Shown here: one piece after another, positions 4,520 through 26,072 of the stretch | How the letters are laid out: each line of letters begins with the position of its first letter | How positions within the stretch are numbered: the first letter of the stretch is position 1 | Assembly: GCA_913041415.1 (NCBI GenBank) | Contig: CAJWHS010000015.1 | Coordinates: 1-39,401 of the forward strand | Source: an uncultured Acidimicrobiaceae bacterium | GTDB taxonomy: Bacteria; Actinomycetota; Acidimicrobiia; Acidimicrobiales; Aldehydirespiratoraceae | DNA length: 39,401 bases | Reading direction: 5' to 3' | Translations under genes and position numbers: made by a program | Notes under the pieces: generated by a model | The model's input: the letters and a program-made list of their open reading frames with translations, nothing else | Databases searched by the model: none | Told to the model about the DNA's origin: nothing

Positions 4520-6292
4520 ATGACGAACGACGACCGGTTCCGGATCGACCGGGTCCCTGCCACCAAGGACGACTGGAGTGACGCCGTCGACGGCGTGCTC
4601 AAGGGGCGCCCCTTCGAAAAGGTGCTGGTGAATCAGACCGCCGGTGGCCTCGACATTCAGCCGCTGTACGCCCCGGCCTCCGCCGAACCGATCCTGCCGG
4701 TCGATCCCCACCGCGTCGCCTACGGTTGGGATATCCGGCAGCGGCACGAGGCGACCTCGCCCTCGGCGTGCCAGGCGGCGTTGCTCGACGATCTCGAGCA
4801 CGGTGTCACCTCGATCGAGCTCGGCACGCCGGCTACGGCCTGGGGCATCGATGACCTCCGTGATGCGTTGGAGGGGGTGCTGCTCGATATCGCGCCCGTC
4901 GTGCTCGCGCCGCACACCGATCTGGATTCGGCCCGAGCCCTGGTGGACCTTCTCGATGAACGCGGCGATGCCCTCACGAGCCGCTGCTGGCTCGGCCTCG
5001 ATCCGATTGGGGCCTACGCCCGAAACAGCGGCGTTGGTGCCGTCGACGAGGTCGCTGCATTCGCTTTTTTGATCTCCGAAACGCATCCGAACGTCGTTGC
5101 ATGCACGATCGACACGACCCGGTATGTCGATGCCGGCGCCGACGAAGTGCAGGAGATCACCTGGATGCTCGCCAGCGGCGTTGCGACGCTTCGAGCGCTC
5201 GAAGCCGCCGGCCTTCCGGTCGAGCGGGCCGCTGCCACCATCGGCTTCCGGGTTGTGGCTGATGCCGATCAGTTCCTCACGATCGCCCGGCTGCGAGCGG
5301 CCCGATCCTTGTGGGGTTCGGTACTCGCCGCCTGTGGGGTCGACGCCCGCCCGTCGCAGTTCCATGCCGTCACGTCGCCTGCGATGTTCTCGCGCCGCGA
5401 TGCGGCGGTGAACATGCTCCGTTCGACGTCGGCGGCGTTCGGCGCGGGTGTCGGCGGCGCCGACTCGGTGACCGTTTTGCCGTTCGACGGCTCCGACTCC
5501 ACGCTCGCTCGTCGGAACGCCCGCAATATCCACCACCTGCTGATCGAGGAGTCCGGTATCAACCGTCTCGTCGACCCGGCCGCCGGTTCCGGCTTCGTCG
5601 AGTCGCTCACGGACCGGCTCTGCGACGCTGCCTGGTCGGCCTTTCAGCAGGTTGAGGCCGACGGTGGCATGGTTGCCGTCCTTGAGTCCGGTGCGGTGGA
5701 GACTGCGATCGATACGGCGTGGTCGGCTCGTCTCGCACGTCTCGCGACCCGGACGGAATCGGTCACTGGCGTATCGGAGTTCCCCGACGACGCACCCGGT
5801 GCGGTGATCCCCGAGCCCGTCGGCGGGTTCCCGTTCCGCCGTCCCGCTGCGCCGTTCGAGACGTTGCGCGACGCCGCCGACCGAGCCCGCGACACCGGCG
5901 AGTCACTGGTGGTTCACCTCGCTACTCTGGGTTCACTGGCCGATCACACCGCCCGTTCGACCTGGATCACGAATTTCTTGGCCGTCGGCGGTCTCGACGC
6001 GATCGGTGGCGATGCCGATGGGGCAGCATCCGCAGCCGACGCCGTCGCCGCCTTCGAGCAGGCGGGCGCATCGGTTGTCGTGCTCTGCTCGTCGGATCCG
6101 GTCTACGCCGAACTGGCTGTACCGGCGGCCACGGCGTTGAAAGCTGTCGGTGCGGATTTCGTGGCCTTAGCCGGTCACCCGGGTGAACGTCGCGACGAGT
6201 TGGCGTCTGCCGGCGTCGACGCTTTCTTCCATGTCGGGATCGACGTGCTTGCGGCGCTCACCGACCTGCATGAACGCTTGGGGGTGCTCTGA
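4520..6292 (+). CDS. mutA: Methylmalonyl-CoA mutase small (beta) subunit
   Basis: This 590-residue protein is the non-catalytic partner of the adenosylcobalamin-dependent mutase that interconverts (R)-methylmalonyl-CoA and succinyl-CoA. It aligns by eye with its partner MutB: GWDIRQRHE, IGFRVVADADQF, ARSLWGSVLAACG, a NMLRSTSAAFGAGVGGADSV segment read in two parts, and LVDPAAGSGFVESLTDRL. In the C-terminal domain the cobalamin-binding DxHxxG motif is absent (GHPGERRDELASAGVDAFFH stands in the equivalent region), as expected for the beta subunit. Length is usual for actinobacterial MutA. The stop TGA (6290-6292) overlaps the ATG of a tiny membrane ORF, which in turn overlaps mutB, so the three are translationally coupled. 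Confidence 0.95.
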   Translation: MTNDDRFRIDRVPATKDDWSDAVDGVLKGRPFEKVLVNQTAGGLDIQPLYAPASAEPILPVDPHRVAYGWDIRQRHEATSPSACQAALLDDLEHGVTSIELGTPATAWGIDDLRDALEGVLLDIAPVVLAPHTDLDSARALVDLLDERGDALTSRCWLGLDPIGAYARNSGVGAVDEVAAFAFLISETHPNVVACTIDTTRYVDAGADEVQEITWMLASGVATLRALEAAGLPVERAAATIGFRVVADADQFLTIARLRAARSLWGSVLAACGVDARPSQFHAVTSPAMFSRRDAAVNMLRSTSAAFGAGVGGADSVTVLPFDGSDSTLARRNARNIHHLLIEESGINRLVDPAAGSGFVESLTDRLCDAAWSAFQQVEADGGMVAVLESGAVETAIDTAWSARLARLATRTESVTGVSEFPDDAPGAVIPEPVGGFPFRRPAAPFETLRDAADRARDTGESLVVHLATLGSLADHTARSTWITNFLAVGGLDAIGGDADGAASAADAVAAFEQAGASVVVLCSSDPVYAELAVPAATALKAVGADFVALAGHPGERRDELASAGVDAFFHVGIDVLAALTDLHERLGVL

Positions 6293-6459
6293 TGAGGAAT
6301 GCCGAGAAGCTCGGATGGTCGTTCTTCGTGCTCGGCTCGTTGGGCTTCACCGCCGCCGGGATCTTGAACGGTGATTGGTGGACCTTCGTCGGGGGTCTGC
6401 TGTACGTGGTCGGATGTGCGGCCTTGCTCCGCAGCGCTACCGAGGGGAGTGCGTCATGA
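6292..6459 (+). CDS. 55-residue two-helix membrane protein between mutA and mutB
   Basis: An ATG at 6292 opens a 55-codon frame ending TGA 6457-6459. The protein starts MRNAEKLGW and has two hydrophobic stretches, about residues 9-25 ([17 protein letters not shown]) and 29-46 ([18 protein letters not shown]), separated by a short NGD turn, with a polar tail. It overlaps mutA by one base (TGATG) and mutB by four (ATGA), fills the mutA-mutB gap exactly, and has a G-rich ribosome-binding stretch at 6280-6285. This spacing argues that it is a real gene and not spacer. I do not recognise the family. A role at the membrane, for example tethering the mutase or a link to cobalamin supply, is speculation. 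Confidence 0.75.
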
Positions 6460-8588
6460 GTTCGATTCCGGATTTCGCGTCGGTGCCCCGCCCTGCCGGC
6501 ACGGTGACGCCGTCCGGCGCTTACCTTGATACCTGGCGGACGCCGGAGGGCATCGATGTCCCCGCCTCGCTCGCCGCCGACATCAACACCGACCTTGCGT
6601 TCCCCGGGACCTTCCCCGGGCTGGCGCCGTTCGTCCGTGGTCCGTACTCGACGATGTACGTCAACCAGCCGTGGACGATCCGTCAGTACGCCGGTTTCTC
6701 CACCGCCGAGGAGTCCAACGCCTTCTACCGTCGCAACCTTGCGGCTGGCCAGAAGGGTCTGTCGGTCGCCTTCGATCTCGCCACCCACCGCGGCTACGAC
6801 TCCGACAATCCGCGGGTGACCGGCGATGTCGGCATGGCAGGTGTCGCGATCGACTCGATCCTCGACATGCGGCAACTCTTTGACGGTATCCCGCTCGACA
6901 AGATGAGCGTGTCGATGACCATGAACGGCGCAGTGCTGCCGATCCTCGCCCTCTACGTGGTGGCAGCCGAGGAACAGGGCGTCGCTCCCAGCCAGCTCGC
7001 CGGGACCATCCAGAACGACATCCTCAAGGAGTTCATGGTCCGCAACACCTACATCTATCCGCCGACTCCGAGCATGCGGATCATCTCCGACATCTTCGCC
7101 TTCGCTAGCCAGGAGATGCCTCGCTTCAACTCGATCTCGATCTCCGGCTACCACATGCAGGAGGCGGGAGCGACGGCGGATCTTGAGCTGGCCTACACGC
7201 TGGCCGACGGTGTGGAGTACGTGCGGGCCGGCGTTGCCGCTGGCCTCGACGTCGATGCGTTTGCGCCGCGTCTCAGCTTCTTCTGGGCGATCGGGATGAA
7301 CTTCTTCATGGAGGTCGCCAAGCTCCGGGCCGCCCGTCTGCTGTGGTCACACCTGATGGCCCAGTTCGACCCGAAAAACCCCAAGGCGTCGTCGTTGCGC
7401 ACCCACTCCCAGACGAGCGGATGGTCGCTCACCGCCCAGGACGTGTTCAACAACGTCACCCGCACCTGTGTCGAAGCGATGGCAGCCACTCAGGGGCACA
7501 CCCAGTCACTGCACACCAACGCCCTCGACGAGGCACTCGCGTTGCCCACCGACTTCTCGGCGCGGATCGCCCGCAATACCCAGCTGTTCCTTCAGCAAGA
7601 GAGCGGCACGACCCGCACCGTCGACCCGTGGGGTGGCAGCCACCATGTCGAGTGGCTCACCAATGAACTGGCCCACAAGGCAATGGCGCACGTCACCGAG
7701 GTCGAGGAGATGGGCGGCATGGCCGCCGCGATCGAGGCTGGCATCCCGAAGCTGCGCATCGAGGAGGCCGCCGCCCGCACCCAGGCCCGCATCGATTCAG
7801 GGCAGCAGGCGGTGATCGGTGTTAACCAGTACCGACTCGAGCCCGGAGAGGAAGAGGATATCGAGGTGCTCAAGATCGAGAACGCCGAGGTCCGCTCCAC
7901 CCAGCTGGCGAAACTTGAACGGCTGCGTGCCGACCGAGATCAGGCCGACGTCGACGCCGCCCTTCACGCACTCACCAATGCCGCCGACAGTGGTGAGGGC
8001 AACCTGCTGGCCCTCGCGATCGATGCCGCCCGGGCCAAGGCGACGGTGGGGGAGATCAGCGACGCCCTCGAAAAGGTCTACGGTCGTCACGTCGCAACCA
8101 TCCGCACGATCGAAGGGGTGTACCGAGCCGAAGTGGGTGCCGAAGCTGATTCCGTCGTCGCTGTCCGAGCGAAGGTCGACGAGTTCGCTGCGGCGAACGG
8201 CCGCCGCCCGCGCATCCTGATCGCCAAGATGGGCCAGGACGGTCACGACCGTGGCCAGAAGGTGATCGCCACTGCGTTCGCTGATCTCGGGTTCGATGTC
8301 GACATCGGGCCGCTTTTCCAAACGCCGGAAGAGGTCGCTCGCCAGGCCGTCGAAGCCGACGTCCATGTCGTCGGTGCGTCGTCGCTTGCCGCCGGGCACC
8401 TCACCCTCGTGCCTGCGCTGCGCGATGCGCTGGCCGAGCTCGGGCGGCCCGACATCAAGATCACTGTTGGCGGCGTGATCCCGCCCGACGACATGCCCGA
8501 GTTGCTCGACATGGGGGCGGTCGCCGTCTACCCCCCTGGCACGGTGATCCCCGATGCCGCATTCGAACTCCTTGATCTGCTCGGCTGA
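6456..8588 (+). CDS. mutB: Methylmalonyl-CoA mutase large (alpha) subunit
   Basis: The catalytic subunit of the B12-dependent mutase, 710 residues, which is the family length. The N-terminal arm and TIM barrel include [20 protein letters not shown] and [18 protein letters not shown], read in parts, with Y and R residues typical of CoA and substrate contacts. [10 protein letters not shown] and [14 protein letters not shown] follow. The C-terminal cobalamin domain has D595-G-H597-D-R-G600, where H597 is the lower axial cobalt ligand, then [13 protein letters not shown] and GGVIPPDD. The frame is open upstream to 6375, but the ATG at 6456 has GGGGAG 7 nt before it, overlaps the preceding small ORF by ATGA and matches the family N-terminus. 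meaB lies downstream beyond a convergent gene. Confidence 0.97.
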
Positions 8589-8597
8589 TGGCCCGGG

Positions 8598-8618
8598 GCC
8601 GGCGGGCCCTTCGCCGGC
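8598..8618. terminator. Short hairpin after mutB
   Basis: GCCGGCG at 8598-8604 and CGCCGGC at 8612-8618 form a perfect 7-bp stem with a 7-nt loop, 10 nt after the mutB stop and before the convergent Dabb gene stop. It could terminate both transcripts. No T-tract. Confidence 0.4.
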
Positions 8619-8637
8619 AACAAGGGCTCGCGAGCGG

Positions 8638-8928
8638 TCAGAGTTCGATCTGGCTGCGAGCGATCGAGGTGGCGTTGGGCGCAATCATCGTGGAGATGAT
8701 CTCCACATGGCGCTCATCGGTGGCGTAGACCCGGTAATCGTCGACCGAATCGAACTCGGCCACGATCGCGATGTCGCCGGTGTTGTCGGCGAGTTCGAGG
8801 TCGAGACCGATCTCGAAGCTTGTGCATTCGGGAACGCCAGCGACCCATTCGAGGAGGGCATCTCGGATCACAGGACCCATGTGCTTGGCGTCGTCGCTGA
8901 GCGCGGTGATGACGTGATGACGGATCAT
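8638..8928 (-). CDS. Dabb-family stress-response A/B-barrel protein
   Basis: A 96-residue protein with the Dabb fold: MIRHHVITALSDDA start, a helix containing MGPVIRDALLEWVAGVPECTSFEIG, a central IAIVAEFDSVDDYRVYATDERHVE and a C-terminal TSIARSQIEL, all at the spacing usual for small dimeric ferredoxin-like proteins. The specific function is unknown; relatives are found in stress-response and polyketide cyclisation contexts. The start ATG 8928 is preferred over in-frame ATGs at 8937 and 8940 because a TATGAT -10 box on the minus strand ends 7 nt before 8928, and because family members start MIRH. It lies between mutB and meaB and is divergent from meaB with only 27 bp between start codons. 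Confidence 0.85.
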   Translation of the reverse strand: MIRHHVITALSDDAKHMGPVIRDALLEWVAGVPECTSFEIGLDLELADNTGDIAIVAEFDSVDDYRVYATDERHVEIISTMIAPNATSIARSQIEL

Positions 8929-8935
8929 GGGCTGC

Positions 8936-8949
8936 ATCATAGGTAGCGT
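8936..8949. promoter_or_regulatory. Back-to-back divergent -10 boxes (Dabb gene and meaB)
   Basis: TATGAT on the minus strand (8941 to 8936) ends 7 nt before the Dabb ATG. TAGCGT on the plus strand (8944-8949) ends 6 nt before the meaB ATG at 8956. The two boxes are 2 nt apart, so each promoter's -35 region must lie inside the other gene's -10 or coding region and simultaneous firing may be excluded. Confidence 0.6.
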
Positions 8950-8955
8950 CGTCGT

Positions 8956-9942
8956 ATGGCTTCCGGTGGTACTGTGCCTTCTGATCTCGCTGCCGGTGTG
9001 CTCGCCGGTGATCGGACCGCGATCGGTCAGGCGATCACGCTTGTCGAGTCGATCCTGCCGGAGCATCGCGTCGATGCCGCAGCGCTGCTCGATGCACTGC
9101 TTCCCCACAGGGGCGATGTCCACCGAGTCGGCATTACCGGGGTGCCCGGCGTCGGCAAGTCAACCTTTATCGAGGCGCTCGGGCTGCAGTTGACCGGCGC
9201 CGGCCACAAGGTGGCCGTCCTCGCTGTCGACCCGTCGAGTTCTCGCACTGGTGGCTCGATCCTGGGTGATAAGACCCGCATGGCCCAGCTGTCGGTCGAC
9301 CCCGACGCTTTCATCCGCCCCTCACCGTCGGCGGGAACGTTGGGTGGCGTCACCCGCGCCACTCGCGAGGCGATGATCGTGCTCGAAGCCGCCGGTCACG
9401 ATGTCGTGCTGGTCGAGACGGTAGGGGTCGGTCAGAGCGAGACGGTCGTGCACGGCATGGTCGACGTCTTCGTCGTCTTGATGCTCTCCGGCGCAGGCGA
9501 CGAGTTGCAGGGCATCAAGAAGGGTGTGCTCGAACTCGCCGATCTGCTGGCGGTCAACAAGGCCGACGGCGCCAACGTCGACAAGGCCAAGCAGGCCGCG
9601 GTCGACTACCGGCGGGCGCTGCATCTCGTCCAACCACCGGGGGCCTCGTGGGAACCTCCCGTGCTCACCTGCTCGGCGATCGAACGCACGGGGCTCGCAG
9701 AGCTCTGGTCCGAAATCGAGCGCCACCGGGCGTTGATGACCGAGACGGGCGAGCGCGACGAGCGCCGCCGGGAGCAGAAGCTCACCTGGATGCGAACGAT
9801 GCTGCAGGAACGGCTGCTGGCGCACTTCGATGCCGATCCGCTGTTCGCCGCCGCTCGGGCCGATGTCGAGGCAGCGGTGAGCGACGGTTCGCTGACACCG
9901 TCGGTGGCGGTCGATCAGCTCCTCGACCGCCTCGGCCCGTAG
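8956..9942 (+). CDS. meaB: Methylmalonyl-CoA mutase-associated GTPase MeaB
   Basis: A 328-residue G3E-class P-loop GTPase that gates cofactor loading and protects the adenosylcobalamin mutase. Walker A GVPGVGKS is at residues 62-69, the VDPSSSRTGGSILGDKTRM switch-like segment at 91-109, the ETVGVGQSE region at 154-162 and the guanine-specificity NKAD at 201-204. The C-terminal helical dimerisation arm (ERRREQKLTWMRTMLQERLL) is present. Length and motifs match bacterial MeaB/ArgK. It lies just after mutA-mutB, as in many propionyl-CoA-using bacteria, but has its own start-proximal -10 box and no clear ribosome-binding site. The old ArgK (lysine/arginine/ornithine transport kinase) name is not supported. 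Confidence 0.95.
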   Translation: MASGGTVPSDLAAGVLAGDRTAIGQAITLVESILPEHRVDAAALLDALLPHRGDVHRVGITGVPGVGKSTFIEALGLQLTGAGHKVAVLAVDPSSSRTGGSILGDKTRMAQLSVDPDAFIRPSPSAGTLGGVTRATREAMIVLEAAGHDVVLVETVGVGQSETVVHGMVDVFVVLMLSGAGDELQGIKKGVLELADLLAVNKADGANVDKAKQAAVDYRRALHLVQPPGASWEPPVLTCSAIERTGLAELWSEIERHRALMTETGERDERRREQKLTWMRTMLQERLLAHFDADPLFAAARADVEAAVSDGSLTPSVAVDQLLDRLGP

Positions 9943-17839: not shown

Positions 17840-19096
17840 ATGGCGGAACCCACCACCGACACCACGGCTCGGCGCCGGTACACAGGATGGAAGGTGGTTG
17901 GCGCTAACTCCGTCGTGTGGTCGCTCCAGTCGATGGTGTGGGTCCAGGGATTCGGGAATCTCGCCGTGGAACTCCGAGATCAGTTTGGCTGGTCGAAGAC
18001 CTTCCTCTCGGTCGTCTTCGGGGCAACGCGAGCTGAGATCGCCCTCATCGGGCCGGTGCAGGGGCGAGAGATCCAGCGGCGAGGTGTCGCCCCGGTGATG
18101 CGCGCCGGCGCGATAGCGAGCGCTGCCGGCTTCGTCGCCGTCGCCGTGATCGATAGCCGCGCCCAGTTCCTCCTAGCGATGCTTCTGCTGGCGATTGGCA
18201 TGAGCCTGGTCGGCTTCCTCACCATCTCGGCGGCGACCGTCGCCTGGTTCGAGAAACGGCGAGCCCGAGCACTGTCGATCCAGACGATGGGTTTCGCGCT
18301 CGGCGGGTTCGCTGCACCGATCATGGTCTTGGGATTCCAGACGGTCGGTTGGCGAGCCACGGTCCTTGTCGTCGGCGGGGTCCTCTCGAGCGCCGCATGG
18401 TGGGCGGCCGGGATCACTGGTCGCCGCCCTGAGGACACGGGTGAACCAATGGACGGCCTCACCGAGGCCGAGGCCGACGCCACCCCCGACGCCGAGGGGA
18501 GCACCGGGCGCCACCTCACCGCCCAACAGGCGTTGCGCACACGAGGCTTCTGGATGATCTCGTTCGGACACGCGTTTGCCCTGCTCGTCGTCGTGTCGTC
18601 GATGGCCCACCTCGCGCTCTACCTCACCGAAGATCGTGGCTACTCGGCCGGATCGGCAGCGATCGTGGCGGGCATCGTGCCGCTCGTGCAGATCCTCGGC
18701 ACGGCGGCCGGCGGCTACCTCGGCGACCGGATCAACAAGCGGTTGATCTCGGGTGTTGCGATGCAGATGCATGGCGCTGCGTTGCTCGGCCTGGTGTGGA
18801 TCGACGCAGGATTCGCCGTCGTGGTCTTCATCGTCCTCCATGGACTCGCATGGGGCGTGCGTGGCCCGCAGATGCAGGCGATCCGAGCCGATTACTTCGG
18901 ATCGACATCGTTCGCCTCGATCATGGGTTGGTCGAACATCATCGTGACGATGGGAGCGATCGCCGGTCCGCTGATCGCCGGCTCGCTCGCTGATGCCACC
19001 GGCGACTATCGCCTCGGCTTCACGATCCTCGGTGTTGCGGCGGCGTGCGGCACCGTCTTCTGGATCTTCGCCACGCCACCGTCGGAGTCGGTCTGA
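17840..19096 (+). CDS. MFS transporter, OFA/monocarboxylate-like
   Basis: A 418-residue, about 12-helix major facilitator protein with a central hydrophilic loop (around 200-235) rich in Asp/Glu. Features include RRYTGWKVVGANSVVW at the N-terminus, an FGWSKTFLSVVFGATRAE first loop, a GRRPEDTGEPMDG inter-domain linker and GYLGDRINKRLI in the second half. This layout is that of the oxalate/formate-monocarboxylate antiporter-type MFS. The substrate is unknown; being downstream of the aminotransferase-mmsA pair suggests an organic or amino acid. The frame opens at 17768, but the ATG at 17840 is the last before the first helix and has a promoter-like box just upstream. Confidence 0.85.
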   Translation: MAEPTTDTTARRRYTGWKVVGANSVVWSLQSMVWVQGFGNLAVELRDQFGWSKTFLSVVFGATRAEIALIGPVQGREIQRRGVAPVMRAGAIASAAGFVAVAVIDSRAQFLLAMLLLAIGMSLVGFLTISAATVAWFEKRRARALSIQTMGFALGGFAAPIMVLGFQTVGWRATVLVVGGVLSSAAWWAAGITGRRPEDTGEPMDGLTEAEADATPDAEGSTGRHLTAQQALRTRGFWMISFGHAFALLVVVSSMAHLALYLTEDRGYSAGSAAIVAGIVPLVQILGTAAGGYLGDRINKRLISGVAMQMHGAALLGLVWIDAGFAVVVFIVLHGLAWGVRGPQMQAIRADYFGSTSFASIMGWSNIIVTMGAIAGPLIAGSLADATGDYRLGFTILGVAAACGTVFWIFATPPSESV

Positions 19097-19126
19097 GCGA
19101 ACCGGCGCCACAGCGGGCGGGCCGAC

Positions 19127-19132
19127 TACGGT
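19127..19132 (+). promoter_or_regulatory. -10 box TACGGT for the selenoprotein gene
   Basis: TACGGT ends 6 nt before the ATG at 19139, indicating leaderless transcription of the gene with the in-frame TGA. Confidence 0.5.
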
Positions 19133-19138
19133 CCCCGT

Positions 19139-20143
19139 ATGGCCAACGACACTGCACTGCTCGACTCGTTCGGCACGATCAGCGAGGCCCAACTCGCCGA
19201 ACTCGGCTGGACGCTCAAGCCAGAGGGGCTTTGTCAGGACGACACGTGTGTGCTCATCCCTGACCGTGGCGCCCTCGTTTCCGACGACGGCCTTGGTCTG
19301 GCCGTCCTCGGTGATCTGCTCGACCGTCCCGTCGCCATCGATACTGAGGCGGGTCTCGCTGCGGTCGGCGCGCCCCGGGCGGCTCGCCGCCAGGCACTCG
19401 ACGATCTCGTCGCTCCCGACTTCACCCTGCCCAACCTTGTGGGCGGCGGGGTCACCTCGCTGAGCGATCATCGCAGCAAAAAACGGTTGCTGATCGCCTT
19501 CTCCAGTTGGTGAGGCTGCGGCTACGAGCTGCCCGGGTGGCAGACACTGCAAAATGAAATCCATGCCGAGGGGCACACGGACTTCGAGATCATCGCCGTC
19601 GCCATCGACGAGAACATCGAGAAGCTCCGCGAGTTGGCCGAGGGAATTACCTACCCGGTGGTGGTTGATGCCGATCATGTCGTCACCGAGCTCTACGCGA
19701 TCTCGAATGTCCCGACCGTTGTGTTGGTCAACGAGGAAGACACGATCGCCATGCCGAACTGGAGTGCCTACGGCAGCGACCTGTTCAGCGAGTTCACCGG
19801 TGTCGAATCCGGCAAGCAGCACGATCGGATCCGTCGCTGGGTGCGCGAGGGCGATGCAGGGATGTCGACGAGTGAGGCGATCGGTGTGGTGGGTGATCTC
19901 TCCAGCGAGGAAGAAGCCGCCCGTCTCCACTTCCGTCTTGCGCTCGCGCTGCGCGATCGGGGCGATCAAGCTGGCTGCGACCGGAACTTCGATCGGGCCG
20001 CCGAACTGGCCCCTGAGGACTGGACAATTCGGCGGGCGATGATGCCGCTCCAAGGGCAGGACCCGTTCGGAGAGAACTTCATGGTGCTCTACGAGGACTG
20101 GAAGGCGAAGGGCAGCCCTTACCACGGGGTACGCGGCTACTGA
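19139..20143 (+). CDS. Thioredoxin-fold (redoxin) selenoprotein with Sec125 encoded by in-frame TGA
   Basis: Two frames, 19139-19513 and the one ending at 20143, are in the same phase and are separated only by TGA 19511-19513. Reading TGA as selenocysteine gives one 334-residue protein with FSSW-U-GCGYELPGW at 121-134, in which the redox-active first Cys of a TlpA/peroxiredoxin-like motif is Sec125. Coding continues without a stop through FEIIAVAID, YPVVVDADHVVTELY and NVPTVVLVNEED, the typical later strands and cis-Pro (VPT) of the fold. The C-terminal part (LHFRLALALRDRGDQAGCDRNFDRAAELAPEDW, in parts) looks like a TPR-type helix pair, then a conserved-looking WTIRRAMMPLQGQDP. An RNA hairpin with SECIS-like geometry follows the TGA. 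The likely role is thiol/peroxide redox chemistry. Sec insertion genes are not in the window. Confidence 0.85.
19514..19551 (+). promoter_or_regulatory. SECIS-like hairpin downstream of the Sec TGA
   Basis: CTGCC (19529-19533) pairs with GGCAG (19539-19543) around loop CGGGT (19534-19538). A lower stem TGCGG (19517-19521) pairs with CTGCA (19547-19551), with one G-U. The loop begins 20 nt after the TGA, has a G in its first two bases, and the element sits inside the coding region, as in bacterial SECIS elements. Confidence 0.65.
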
Positions 20144-22524: not shown

Positions 22525-23613
22525 TCAGAAGTCCTCGTCGAAGGCGACATCGCCCTCGACGCCGACCTGGTAGGCCGAGACGGTGCGCTCGAAGAAGTTC
22601 GAGAGCTCTTGGACGTCCTGTAATTCCATGAAGGCGAACGGGTTCGAGGCGTTGAAGCGCTTGGGCAGGCCGAGCTGGCTCAGACGCTGATCGGCGACGA
22701 ACTCGAGGTAGGTGCGGGTGTCCACCGTGGACATGCCGGGCACACCTTCGCCGAGGAGATCCTCGGCGAACTGGAACTCGGCGTCGACGGCCTCTTCGAG
22801 CATTGCGGTGATGCGCTCGCCGAGATCGTCGTCGAACAGCTGGGGCTCCTCGGCCCGAACCGTGTTGATGACCTCAAGGGCGAAGTTCATGTGCATCGAC
22901 TCGTCGCGGAACACCCAGTTCGTGCCGGCGGCGAGACCGTTGAGCAGGCCCTTGCTGCGCAGGAAGTACACGTAGGCAAACGCCGCAAAGAAGAACAGAC
23001 CCTCGATGCAGGTGGCGAAGCAGATGAGGTTCATGAGGAACCGCTTGCGGTCCTCCTCGGTCTGCAGGGCCCCGTCAGGAACATCGCTCATCCACTTGAA
23101 GCAGAAGTCGGCCTTGGTCTTGATTGAAGGGATGTTCTCGATTGCTGCGAACGCCTCGGCCCGCTCGTCGTGATCCGGGATGTAGTTGTCGAGCAGGTTC
23201 AAATAGAACTGGACGTGCAGCGCCTCTTCGTAGAGCTGACGGCTCAGATACATCCGGGCTTCGGGGGCGTTGATGTGCTGGTAGAGGTTGAGCACCAGAT
23301 TGTTGGCCACGATCGAGTCGCCGGTGGCGAAGAACGCCACGAGGCGGCTGATCAGGTGCTTCTCGGCCGGCATCAGTTTGCGATCGAGGTCGGTGAGATC
23401 GTCGGAGAAGTCGATCTCCTCGACGGTCCACGTGTTCTTGATAGCGTCTTTGTACATCTCGAAGAACTGCGGGTACCGCATCGGCCGCAACGTGAGGTCG
23501 AAGCCGGGGTCGAGAATGTTGGTGTGGGCACCTCGGTTGGCGGAGTGGCCGAGGTTGTCGGTCTGGGCGGGCTCCGCCGCGAGTGCGTAGTTGTGATCTT
23601 CTGCCAGTGCCAT
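22525..23613 (-). CDS. nrdB: Class I ribonucleotide reductase small subunit
   Basis: A 362-residue diiron protein that generates the tyrosyl radical for deoxynucleotide synthesis. All expected ligands can be read: D99 (ATGDS), E130 and H133 (EEALH), E204 (CIEGLF), E238 and H241 (RDESMH). The radical tyrosine Y137 stands four after H133, so this is a conventional tyrosyl-radical enzyme, not a Tyr-less class Ic type. The C-terminus ends VEGDVAFDEDF, the acidic tail that docks to NrdA. The frame starts at 23622, but ATG 23613 overlaps the nrdA stop by one base (TGATG), showing translational coupling. Confidence 0.96.
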   Translation of the reverse strand: MALAEDHNYALAAEPAQTDNLGHSANRGAHTNILDPGFDLTLRPMRYPQFFEMYKDAIKNTWTVEEIDFSDDLTDLDRKLMPAEKHLISRLVAFFATGDSIVANNLVLNLYQHINAPEARMYLSRQLYEEALHVQFYLNLLDNYIPDHDERAEAFAAIENIPSIKTKADFCFKWMSDVPDGALQTEEDRKRFLMNLICFATCIEGLFFFAAFAYVYFLRSKGLLNGLAAGTNWVFRDESMHMNFALEVINTVRAEEPQLFDDDLGERITAMLEEAVDAEFQFAEDLLGEGVPGMSTVDTRTYLEFVADQRLSQLGLPKRFNASNPFAFMELQDVQELSNFFERTVSAYQVGVEGDVAFDEDF

Positions 23614-26072
23614 CAGTCGCACGCCTCACATGCTTCGGGGTTCTCCAGCGAGCAGGCGATGGCCTCTTCGTCGGTGAACATCTTCTTTTCGGGAGCGGGC
23701 TGCCCACCGCCGGTGGGGCCACCCGAGCCACCGGCGGTGGCCTTGTTGATCTTGGTCGCCGGGCGAGAACGCAGGTAGTAGGTGGTCTTGAGACCGGCCT
23801 TCCAGGCGTACATGTACATCGACGAGAGCTTGCCGATGGTGGGCGACTCCATGAAGAGGTTGAGCGACTGGCTCTGATCGATGAAGGCGCCGCGGTCGGC
23901 GGCCATCTCGATCAAGCTCTTCATCGGGATCTCCCACGCCGTGCGGTAGATCGCCTTGAGATCGTCGGGAATTCGGTCGACGTCTTGGATCGAACCCTCG
24001 GACTTCTTGACCTCGGCGATCATCTCGGCGTCCCACAGGCCCCGGCTCTGGAGTTCCTTGACCAAGTGGCGGTTGATCTGCATGAACTCGCCCGAGAGGG
24101 TCTCACGCTTGAAGAGGTTCGAGACCTGGGGCTCGATGCACTCGTAGCAGCCGGCGATCGAGGCGATCGTTGCGGTCGGGGCGATGGCGATCATGAGTGA
24201 GTTGCGAAGACCGTGGGCCTTGATGCGCTCACGCAGCAGCTCCCAACGCTCGGTGTCGGAGGGCTCGACGCCCCACAGGTCGAACTGCAGGTCGCCGTTG
24301 GCGGCACGGGTCTCGGGGAAGGCAGCGTGGGCGCCGTTGGCCTCAGCCAGTTCGGTGGAAGCCCACAGGGCGTTGAAGTAGATCTCCTCGGAGATTCGAC
24401 GGCTGACGTCGCGAGCGACGGGGCTGTCGAACGGGACGCCGAGCTTGAAGAAGACGTCCTGGAGGCCCATCAGGCCCAGGCCGACCGGGCGCCAGCGGGC
24501 GTTGGACACGCCGGCCTCGTCGGTCGGGTAGTAGTTGATGTCGATGACCCGATCGAGAAAGGGCACTACCTGGCGGACGACCTCGCCGAGACGCTCGTAG
24601 TCCACGCCGGCGACTCCGTCGGTTTCGGCGACGAACTCACCGAGGTTGACCGAACCGAGGTTGCACACCGCCGTCTCGGACTGCGAAGTCACCTCGAGGA
24701 TTTCGGTGCAGAGGTTCGACAGGTGCACGACCCGGTCGCGGGCGTTGCCCTCAGCGGCGGTGCCGGGACCCGTCTGGTTGCACTTTTCGTTGCTGGGATC
24801 CTTGAAGGTCATCCAGCCGTTGCCCGTCTCGGCCAGCGTCTTCATCATGCGCTGGTAGAGCTGACGGGCCGGAACCTGCTTTTCGAAGCGGCCGTCGGCC
24901 TCGGCCTGCTCGTAGATGGCGCGGAACTCCTCGCCGAAGGTGTCGATGAGCTCGGGGACCCGCTTGGGATCGAAGAGGCTCCACTGCCAGTCCTTTTCGA
25001 CCCGCTCCATGAAGAGGTCGGGGATCCAGTTGGCGAGGTTGATGTTGTGGGTGCGGCGGGCATGGTCGCCGGTGTTGTCGCGCAGCTCGAGGAACTGGTC
25101 GATGTCGGCGTGCCAGCTTTCGAGGTAGACGCAAGCGGCTCCCTTGCGGCGACCGCCCTGGTTGACGGCGGCGACCGAGGCGTCGAGGGTCTTGAGCCAC
25201 GGGATGATGCCGTTGCTGAGGCCGTTGGTGCCAACGATCAGGCTGTTCTTAGAGCGGATTCGGTGCCAGGCGACGCCGATACCGCCGGCGAACTTCGAGA
25301 GGCGGGCGATGTCGGTGTAGCGCTTGTAGATGCCCTCGAGGGAATCCTCGGGCGAGTCGAGCAGGTAGCAGCTGGACATCTGCGGGTGGGTCGTGCCCGA
25401 GTTGAACAGGGTGGGCGACGACGGAAGGTAGGCCAGCGACGACATGAGGTCGTAGAACTTGATGGCCTCGTCGGCGTCGGTGGACAGGCCACAGGCAACC
25501 CGCAGGAAGAAGTACTGCGGGGTCTCGATGACCTTGCGGGTCTCGGGGTGGCGGAGAAGGTAGCGGTCATAGACCGTGCGCAGGCCGAAGAACTCGAAGT
25601 TCTTGTCGCGCTGGGAGTTGATGGCGGCGTTGAGTTCGGGGGCGTTGGTGGCGACGAACTCGAGGACGTCGTCGCCGATCAGGCCGAGGGTGTGGCCGAG
25701 GGTGACCGACTCCGAGAACCAGGGGACGTTCTGGTTGCGAACTTCTTTGTCGACATAGGTCGCCAACATGCGGGCGGCAAGCCTGGAGTAGTTGGGCTCC
25801 TCGACGATGAGGCCGGCTGCGGTGCGGATCGACAGCTCATCGAGCTCCTGGGTGGTGGAACCGTCGGCGAGCGCCGAGATCGTGCGGGTGGAGACGACCA
25901 TCGGGTCGACGCCCATCAGGCCCTCGGAGGCGCGGGCGATGGCGTTGACGATTTTATTGAGATCGACGGGTTCGAGCGAGCCGTTGCGCTTCTTCACCCG
26001 CATGGTGGTGGCCGTTTCGACCGCCGTGCCGTTGTCGCCGACTGCGGACAGTCGGTCCTCCGTGATCGCCAT
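23613..26072 (-). CDS. nrdA: Class I ribonucleotide reductase large subunit
   Basis: An 819-residue catalytic subunit reducing ribonucleoside diphosphates. An N-terminal ATP-cone (about 24-115, KKRNGSLEPVDLNKIVNAI) gives overall activity control by ATP/dATP. The substrate-site cysteines appear in QMSSCYLL and HLSNLCTEIL (with the Glu), and NLGSVNLGEF and APTATIASIAGCYECIEP follow. The C-terminus carries a flexible Gly/Pro linker, then the CEACD pair that relays electrons from thioredoxin. The sequence style is the eukaryote-like class Ia group. ATG 26072 is preceded by AGAGGGG. It is the first gene of an nrdAB operon facing a MarR gene across 308 bp. Confidence 0.97.
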   Translation of the reverse strand: MAITEDRLSAVGDNGTAVETATTMRVKKRNGSLEPVDLNKIVNAIARASEGLMGVDPMVVSTRTISALADGSTTQELDELSIRTAAGLIVEEPNYSRLAARMLATYVDKEVRNQNVPWFSESVTLGHTLGLIGDDVLEFVATNAPELNAAINSQRDKNFEFFGLRTVYDRYLLRHPETRKVIETPQYFFLRVACGLSTDADEAIKFYDLMSSLAYLPSSPTLFNSGTTHPQMSSCYLLDSPEDSLEGIYKRYTDIARLSKFAGGIGVAWHRIRSKNSLIVGTNGLSNGIIPWLKTLDASVAAVNQGGRRKGAACVYLESWHADIDQFLELRDNTGDHARRTHNINLANWIPDLFMERVEKDWQWSLFDPKRVPELIDTFGEEFRAIYEQAEADGRFEKQVPARQLYQRMMKTLAETGNGWMTFKDPSNEKCNQTGPGTAAEGNARDRVVHLSNLCTEILEVTSQSETAVCNLGSVNLGEFVAETDGVAGVDYERLGEVVRQVVPFLDRVIDINYYPTDEAGVSNARWRPVGLGLMGLQDVFFKLGVPFDSPVARDVSRRISEEIYFNALWASTELAEANGAHAAFPETRAANGDLQFDLWGVEPSDTERWELLRERIKAHGLRNSLMIAIAPTATIASIAGCYECIEPQVSNLFKRETLSGEFMQINRHLVKELQSRGLWDAEMIAEVKKSEGSIQDVDRIPDDLKAIYRTAWEIPMKSLIEMAADRGAFIDQSQSLNLFMESPTIGKLSSMYMYAWKAGLKTTYYLRSRPATKINKATAGGSGGPTGGGQPAPEKKMFTDEEAIACSLENPEACEACD

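Follow-up and report, generated by a model that had tools for sequence, protein, structure and literature searches.

Does the in-frame TGA of a thioredoxin-like gene in an uncultured Acidimicrobiaceae bacterium separate two broken genes, or does it encode selenocysteine (Sec), and in that case, what kind of selenoprotein results? The window, meaning the whole stretch of 39,401 nt analysed here, contains a frame at 19139-20143 (+) whose sole internal stop is the TGA at 19511-19513. An earlier note on this DNA had described two same-phase ORFs parted by that single TGA, which a conventional pipeline would call as two truncated genes, and had proposed the Sec reading FSSW-U-GCGYELPGW for the flanking residues. 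Translation table 11 does break the frame into two same-phase fragments, 19139-19513 and 19634-20143, and translation of 19139-20143 reproduces the Sec reading. A 650-aa ORF lying antisense to the gene (18173-20125, -) is probably spurious. The features considered first are:

19139-20143 (+): predicted selenoprotein gene, 334 aa, with Sec as residue 125 and the stop TGA at 20141-20143
19511-19513 (+): TGA codon of residue 125, taken to encode selenocysteine on the basis of a Sec/Cys-only column and of the Sec machinery in the genome
19517-19519 (+): codon of Cys127, the partner of Sec125 in U-G-C, invariant in 41 aligned members

The genome to which the window belongs (2.68 Mb in 143 contigs, 96.85% complete) encodes the four components that the earlier note had suggested looking for. 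We found selA (371.8 bits) adjoining selB (291.1 bits) on contig C57, selD (340.3 bits) and a tRNA-Sec with anticodon TCA (64 bits against a cut-off of 47), all of them exceeding their curated cut-offs. The selD gene has one in-frame TGA of its own (GAGUGCKL) and is likely a selenoprotein gene as well, truncated by the contig end (G000 contig C18, L022:1-843).

The codon aligned with residue 125 was then read in two sets of loci, and in both it encodes Cys or Sec only, as the earlier note had expected for this position. The relatives search covered 149 genomes, the window's own included, and matched the protein in 108; among 67 readable loci of 70 the codon is TGA in 63, Cys in 4 and anything else in none. 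These 67 comprise 47 loci of family A, the window's family (43 TGA, 4 Cys), and 20 of a second family, B, which were picked from rows already flagged as having one TGA and so give no independent test of the column. A separate scan of named genomes, which retained 80 of 191 loci, gave 62 TGA, 13 TGC, 4 TGT and no other codon in 79 readable loci, in a TGA to Cys ratio that is no census, because one of the two peptide patterns used was written with Cys. Four loci whose match stops short of residue 125 were dropped (L042, L070 and L071 among the relatives, L122 among the named loci). Several genomes occur in both sets, and L137 and G072 are apparently one genome. The closest named relatives are Acidimicrobiaceae or Acidimicrobiales metagenome-assembled genomes, with 97% for PBTQ01000067.1, and family A extends to records named Chloroflexi, Deltaproteobacteria and Rokubacteria.

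A sequencing or assembly error that produced TGA from a codon for Cys or Trp, conceivable in so fragmented an assembly, has next to no probability, as the identical TGA stands at codon 125 in all seven other readable same-genus genomes (G001-G006 and G008), which are separate assemblies, and the column is never Trp in the relatives. Termination at this TGA, yielding two truncated proteins or a pseudogene, is what the two ORFs of table 11 would imply at face value, and we regard it as highly improbable: frame and TGA are kept from the same genus out to other phyla, relatives have Cys in its place, and purifying selection persists past the TGA. In comparisons with four same-genus relatives (L024-L027) dN/dS is 0.072-0.121 on the 3' side of the TGA and 0.13-0.43 on the 5' side; L028 was excluded from the upstream comparison, where an ungapped comparison failed. 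Since the column otherwise holds only Cys and dN/dS after the TGA is low, the in-frame TGA goes beyond chance. The earlier interpretation of the TGA as Sec is thus borne out by the machinery in the genome, by the same-genus genomes and by the column, and we are confident that, as the comparisons indicate, the gene encodes a selenoprotein with TGA as its Sec codon and a SECIS behind it.

In keeping with established bacterial Sec insertion, SelB with Sec-tRNA would bind the hairpin behind the TGA, and Sec would be inserted with no termination. The elements of this hairpin are:

19529-19543 (+): predicted SECIS apical hairpin, stem 19529-19533/19539-19543 (CTGCC/GGCAG), from conservation, covariation and folding
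19535-19536 (+): loop G[G/U], within the apical hairpin
19534 and 19537 (+): covarying Watson-Crick third bases of the Pro132 and Gly133 codons, with T19538 unpaired
19517-19551 (+): the longer two-part hairpin of the earlier note, whose lower helix 19517-19521/19547-19551 is unconserved

The two-part hairpin had been put forward with a 5-bp apical stem and a GG-containing loop 20 nt downstream of the TGA. It can form, with -11.4 kcal/mol when the apical stem is enforced (19517-19521/19547-19551 plus 19529-19533/19539-19543), but the unconstrained minimum of the stretch is a rival hairpin 0.9 kcal/mol more stable (-12.3 kcal/mol), and all five pairs of the lower helix occur in 4 of 97 Sec genes. 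What held is the apical part: the loop CGGGU starts 20 nt after the TGA, and the 5-bp stem is complete in 96 of the 97 Sec genes, as against 8 of the 20 Cys genes, that were distinct once repeated 63-nt stretches had been collapsed (from 125 Sec and 21 Cys loci). RNAalifold recovers the apical hairpin from the 97 Sec genes, with 6 bp and a 5-nt loop (the outermost pair is G-A in the window), and a different, weak hairpin from the 20 Cys genes. No match at gathering scores was obtained from Rfam in the hairpin region.

Alternatively, the stem could merely accompany a conserved peptide, LP(G/V)WQ, with Sec inserted without any hairpin, and LPGWQ or LPVWQ does by itself favour CTGCC..GGCAG; two further points in favour of this by-product reading are the unremarkable generic folding energy and the fact that a different hairpin is the minimum fold in the window. 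Codon choice argues against it. Leu131 is CTG in 93/97 Sec genes, a codon that accounts for 38% of Leu in the flanking parts of these genes, and the stem is kept by compensating codons in some Sec genes (TTG/CAA in L069 and L092, CTC/GAG in L068); L123 and L129, both Cys genes, have the TTG/CAA swap as well. The Cys homologues often carry stem-breaking Leu codons, the third base not being G in 10/20, and they have Ala133 in 6/20, while residue 133 is Gly or Val, both of which give loop G[G/U], in 97/97 Sec genes.

A further argument against the by-product reading comes from the third bases of the codons of Pro132 and residue 133 (N1 and N2), which are synonymous. They are Watson-Crick partners (C-G, G-C or A-T) in 95/97 Sec genes and in 8/20 Cys genes. 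Permuting the bases separately among Gly and Val genes, a procedure that ignores kinship, gave 57.0 +/- 3.7 pairs with a maximum of 72 in 20,000, and N1-N2 ranks first of 232 third-position codon pairs (z 11.9, the next being 5.2). When one gene was taken per 80% identity over 45 nt, N1-N2 pairs were present in 16/18 Sec and 2/7 Cys representatives. On the tree each base has 13 changes and the pair 14 (12, 12 and 13 once five long-branch rows are left out), so N1 and N2 mostly change together. Pairing of synonymous third bases is not expected from protein selection alone, and comparison of Sec and Cys genes shows a hairpin, 16-30 nt past the TGA, that is under RNA-level selection in genes with TGA and relaxes in those with Cys. 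We consider it highly improbable that this hairpin is a mere consequence of the peptide.

In a folding-energy test against synonymous-codon shuffles the SECIS region hardly stood out: the 77 family-A Sec genes had mean z of -0.46 (39 nt) and -0.33 (45 nt) after the TGA, other 45-nt stretches of the same genes ranged from -0.10 to -0.37, and the same stretches of Cys genes gave -0.26 and -0.32. This test preceded those of pairing and covariation, which used the same sequences. Compared with the consensus rules for bacterial SECIS elements given in section 5 of PMC13188914, which include an energy of -7.5, the window agrees in spacing (20 nt), stem (5 bp) and loop (5 nt with G second), as far as that section describes them. 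In energy, the fold that includes the lower helix (-11.4) passes the limit, and the isolated apical 21 nt fall narrowly short of it (-7.3). A difference from the consensus is that the covarying bases here are N1 and the base right after G[G/U], the U of the Trp codon being unpaired.

The occurrence of Sec as against Cys follows the presence of selA closely, although imperfectly. In the relatives set, a selA match is present in 43/43 family-A Sec-form genomes, own genome included, 40 of them above the cut-off (the matches of G039, G104 and G119 are shorter and below it), and in 1/4 Cys-form genomes (G095). Among the named loci, where the test covered every one of the 17 Cys loci and 18 of the 62 Sec loci and completeness was not given, selA matched in 18/18 Sec-form genomes (17 above the cut-off) and 1/17 Cys-form genomes (G164). 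The Cys form thus stands together with selA at L056 (G095) and L157 (G164). The Sec/Cys label requires at least 5 changes on the 117-row tree (4 without the five long-branch rows). The tree itself gives no direction for the exchange; Sec was probably lost in several lineages, as family B branches outside family A and its sampled members all have Sec. Neither the folding-energy test, nor the rival fold, nor the lower helix, nor the Cys genomes with SelA touch the column or the covariation.

The two families separate at an SH-aLRT of 100 in both trees that we built, with the hairpin codons left within the protein columns. The first tree was made by a quick method with SH-aLRT only, and five family-B rows in it were flagged as long branches; the split between A and B keeps its value of 100 in the second, made without those rows. 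Several genomes carry both families, for example G032, G034, G104 and G107. The chain beyond Sec has 201-210 residues in 44/47 family-A loci (the others having 48, cut, 239 and 302) and 233-253 in the 20 family-B loci. The protein itself is divided as follows:

19139-19408 (+): N-terminal domain, residues 1-90, with an invariant CX4C formed by Cys32 (19232-19234) and Cys37 (19247-19249)
19412-19747 (+): thioredoxin-fold domain (AhpC-TSA/ResA-like), residues 92-203
19904-20107 (+): C-terminal helical part, residues 256-323, TPR-like, with TPR_2 below its cut-off

Columns were compared in a 41-row alignment (A1) drawn from the 47 readable family-A loci, which omits L026, L027, L038, L064, L069 and L072, and the only Cys/Sec columns common to all 41 members are 32, 37, 125 and 127. 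The profile of these members, searched against solved structures, is led by ResA (1st9, E 1.1e-21) and other thiol-disulfide oxidoreductases. In its alignment the two active-site Cys of ResA are matched, in order, by Sec125 and Cys127, with one residue fewer between these than in ResA, so that Sec does occupy the first redox-active position, as had been claimed, in a U-x-C spacing one shorter than CxxC. The AlphaFold model has a pLDDT of 94, and in the VIA structure comparison it superposes on 1st9 with Z 17.0 (rmsd 2.3 over 134 residues) and on 3gl3 with Z 18.2.

The N-terminal domain was matched 51 times in 61 genomes, 50 times at family A or B loci; the remaining match is a 34-residue fragment outside the listed family loci (G067:C98:3158-3259). 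Modelled alone, the domain has a pLDDT of 83, and its best match in the PDB has an E of 0.31, which gives no convincing fold and does not show a new one. None of the 41 family-A members exceeds 1.8 in the first 60 residues in a hydropathy scan, and because this reveals no hydrophobic N-terminal segment, the protein is probably cytosolic, unlike ResA/TlpA.

Two readings of the chemistry have to be weighed. The same selenoprotein might work mainly as a peroxiredoxin-like Sec peroxidase in which Sec125 reduces hydroperoxides. Pfam AhpC-TSA (pfam00578) is the best domain (residues 92-203, 36.9 bits against a gathering score of 26), peroxiredoxins such as 5dvb and 3tkr are among the VIA rows, and published names of UGC proteins include 'Prx-like' (PMC2398784 and PMC9312934, in the parts available). 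The structure profile search argues in the other direction, being headed by ResA and other thiol-disulfide oxidoreductases. Peroxiredoxins have the motif PxxxTxxC. This motif is absent here, and residues 118-127, LIAFSSWUGC, fit it neither with Cys127 nor with Sec125. We hold the peroxidase to be possible and the less likely of the two.

The reading that we favour, with some reservation, is a ResA-fold thiol-disulfide oxidoreductase with a Sec-x-Cys site. Sec125 would attack a disulfide and Cys127 would resolve the intermediate, leaving a Sec125-Cys127 selenenylsulfide that may be re-reduced by the Cys32/Cys37 pair or by an outside thioredoxin-like reductant, and the C-terminal helices might hold a partner or client. 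A more speculative extension of this oxidoreductase, which we offer tentatively, is a cytosolic selenium relay in one chain: the CX4C domain would pass electrons to the short Sec-x-Cys site, and the C-terminal helices would recruit the client. If the relay reading were true, the repeated exchange of Sec and Cys, tracking the absence of selA, would provide natural matched pairs for asking what advantage selenium confers.

Regarding the neighbourhood, genes for the large and small chains of class I ribonucleotide reductase (NrdA/NrdB, 22525-26072, -) lie convergently downstream of the selenoprotein gene in the window, with a Na+/H+ exchanger-Usp gene in between. NrdB/NrdA are convergent downstream in 13/80 named loci, all of them close relatives; orientation is opposite and the synteny local, and we rejected the neighbourhood as functional evidence. 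Antisense ORFs dominated an initial clustering of neighbours, which we set aside. Elsewhere in the window, 4520-9942 (+) contains two methylmalonyl-CoA mutase genes followed by MeaB. A tblastn search of plasmids gave 19 records, none covering more than 80% of the query; one of the loci, L173, on a plasmid of Streptomyces sp. NBC_00536 (1501-1896), is similar only to residues 198-329 (33%), has no listed gene and is perhaps a remnant.

The hairpin constitutes an unusually clean comparative case of a SECIS, in which third bases covary in Sec genes and cease to do so in Cys genes within one coding frame. In addition, the Sec/Cys pairs with and without selA lend themselves to testing directly what a U-x-C thioredoxin fold gains from Sec. 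As table 11 gives fragments and the window protein stays below the cut-off of NF041054, members of this clade throughout Acidimicrobiia may well be wrongly annotated.

How does this protein compare with known systems? With ResA, TlpA and StoA it shares a thioredoxin fold of the ResA type; they have CxxC where it has U-x-C, one residue shorter, and it differs from them in having no hydrophobic N-terminal segment and two extra chain parts. NCBIfam NF041054 (WAxxUGC_long, 'ResA-like WAxxUGC motif-containing protein') matches residues 17-305 of the window protein with 163.4-163.5 bits, which does not reach its curated cut-off of 300 bits. All 41 family-A members match this model, the best with E 5.5e-72, about 244 bits by extrapolation and below 300; the best E in family B is 1.6e-174, and its first member has 271.2 bits. 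The motif of NF041054 is WAxxUGC as against FSSWUGC here, and the UGC site and the CX4C of family B are also present in family A. Judging from these scores and the trees, NF041054 probably describes part of family B, with family A as its sister clade. Our literature searches returned no paper joining selenoprotein with WAxxUGC or with ResA-like, and, by title, nothing on topic for selenocysteine in Acidimicrobi-.

Selenoproteins of a related kind have been named in three papers, as far as their available parts go: a 'Prx-like (UGC-containing)' protein with pfam00578, 46 sequences and counted Cys homologues (PMC2398784), a 'UGC-containing Prx-like protein' (PMC9312934) and a 'UGC-containing TlpA disulfide reductase family protein' with cd02966 (PMC13188914). 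They share with our protein the AhpC-TSA/TlpA-type thioredoxin fold and Sec in a UGC motif, and MDE0950781.1 and MBL6689828.1 are their published representatives. In those parts they are described by domain, motif, counts or accession, without the clade, the CX4C domain, the C-terminal helices or the covarying SECIS. Compared by these descriptions only, the protein belongs by domain and motif to the loosely defined UGC-containing Prx/TlpA-like kind. Selenoproteins of this kind are already in print, and the present protein adds to them a clade beside NF041054.
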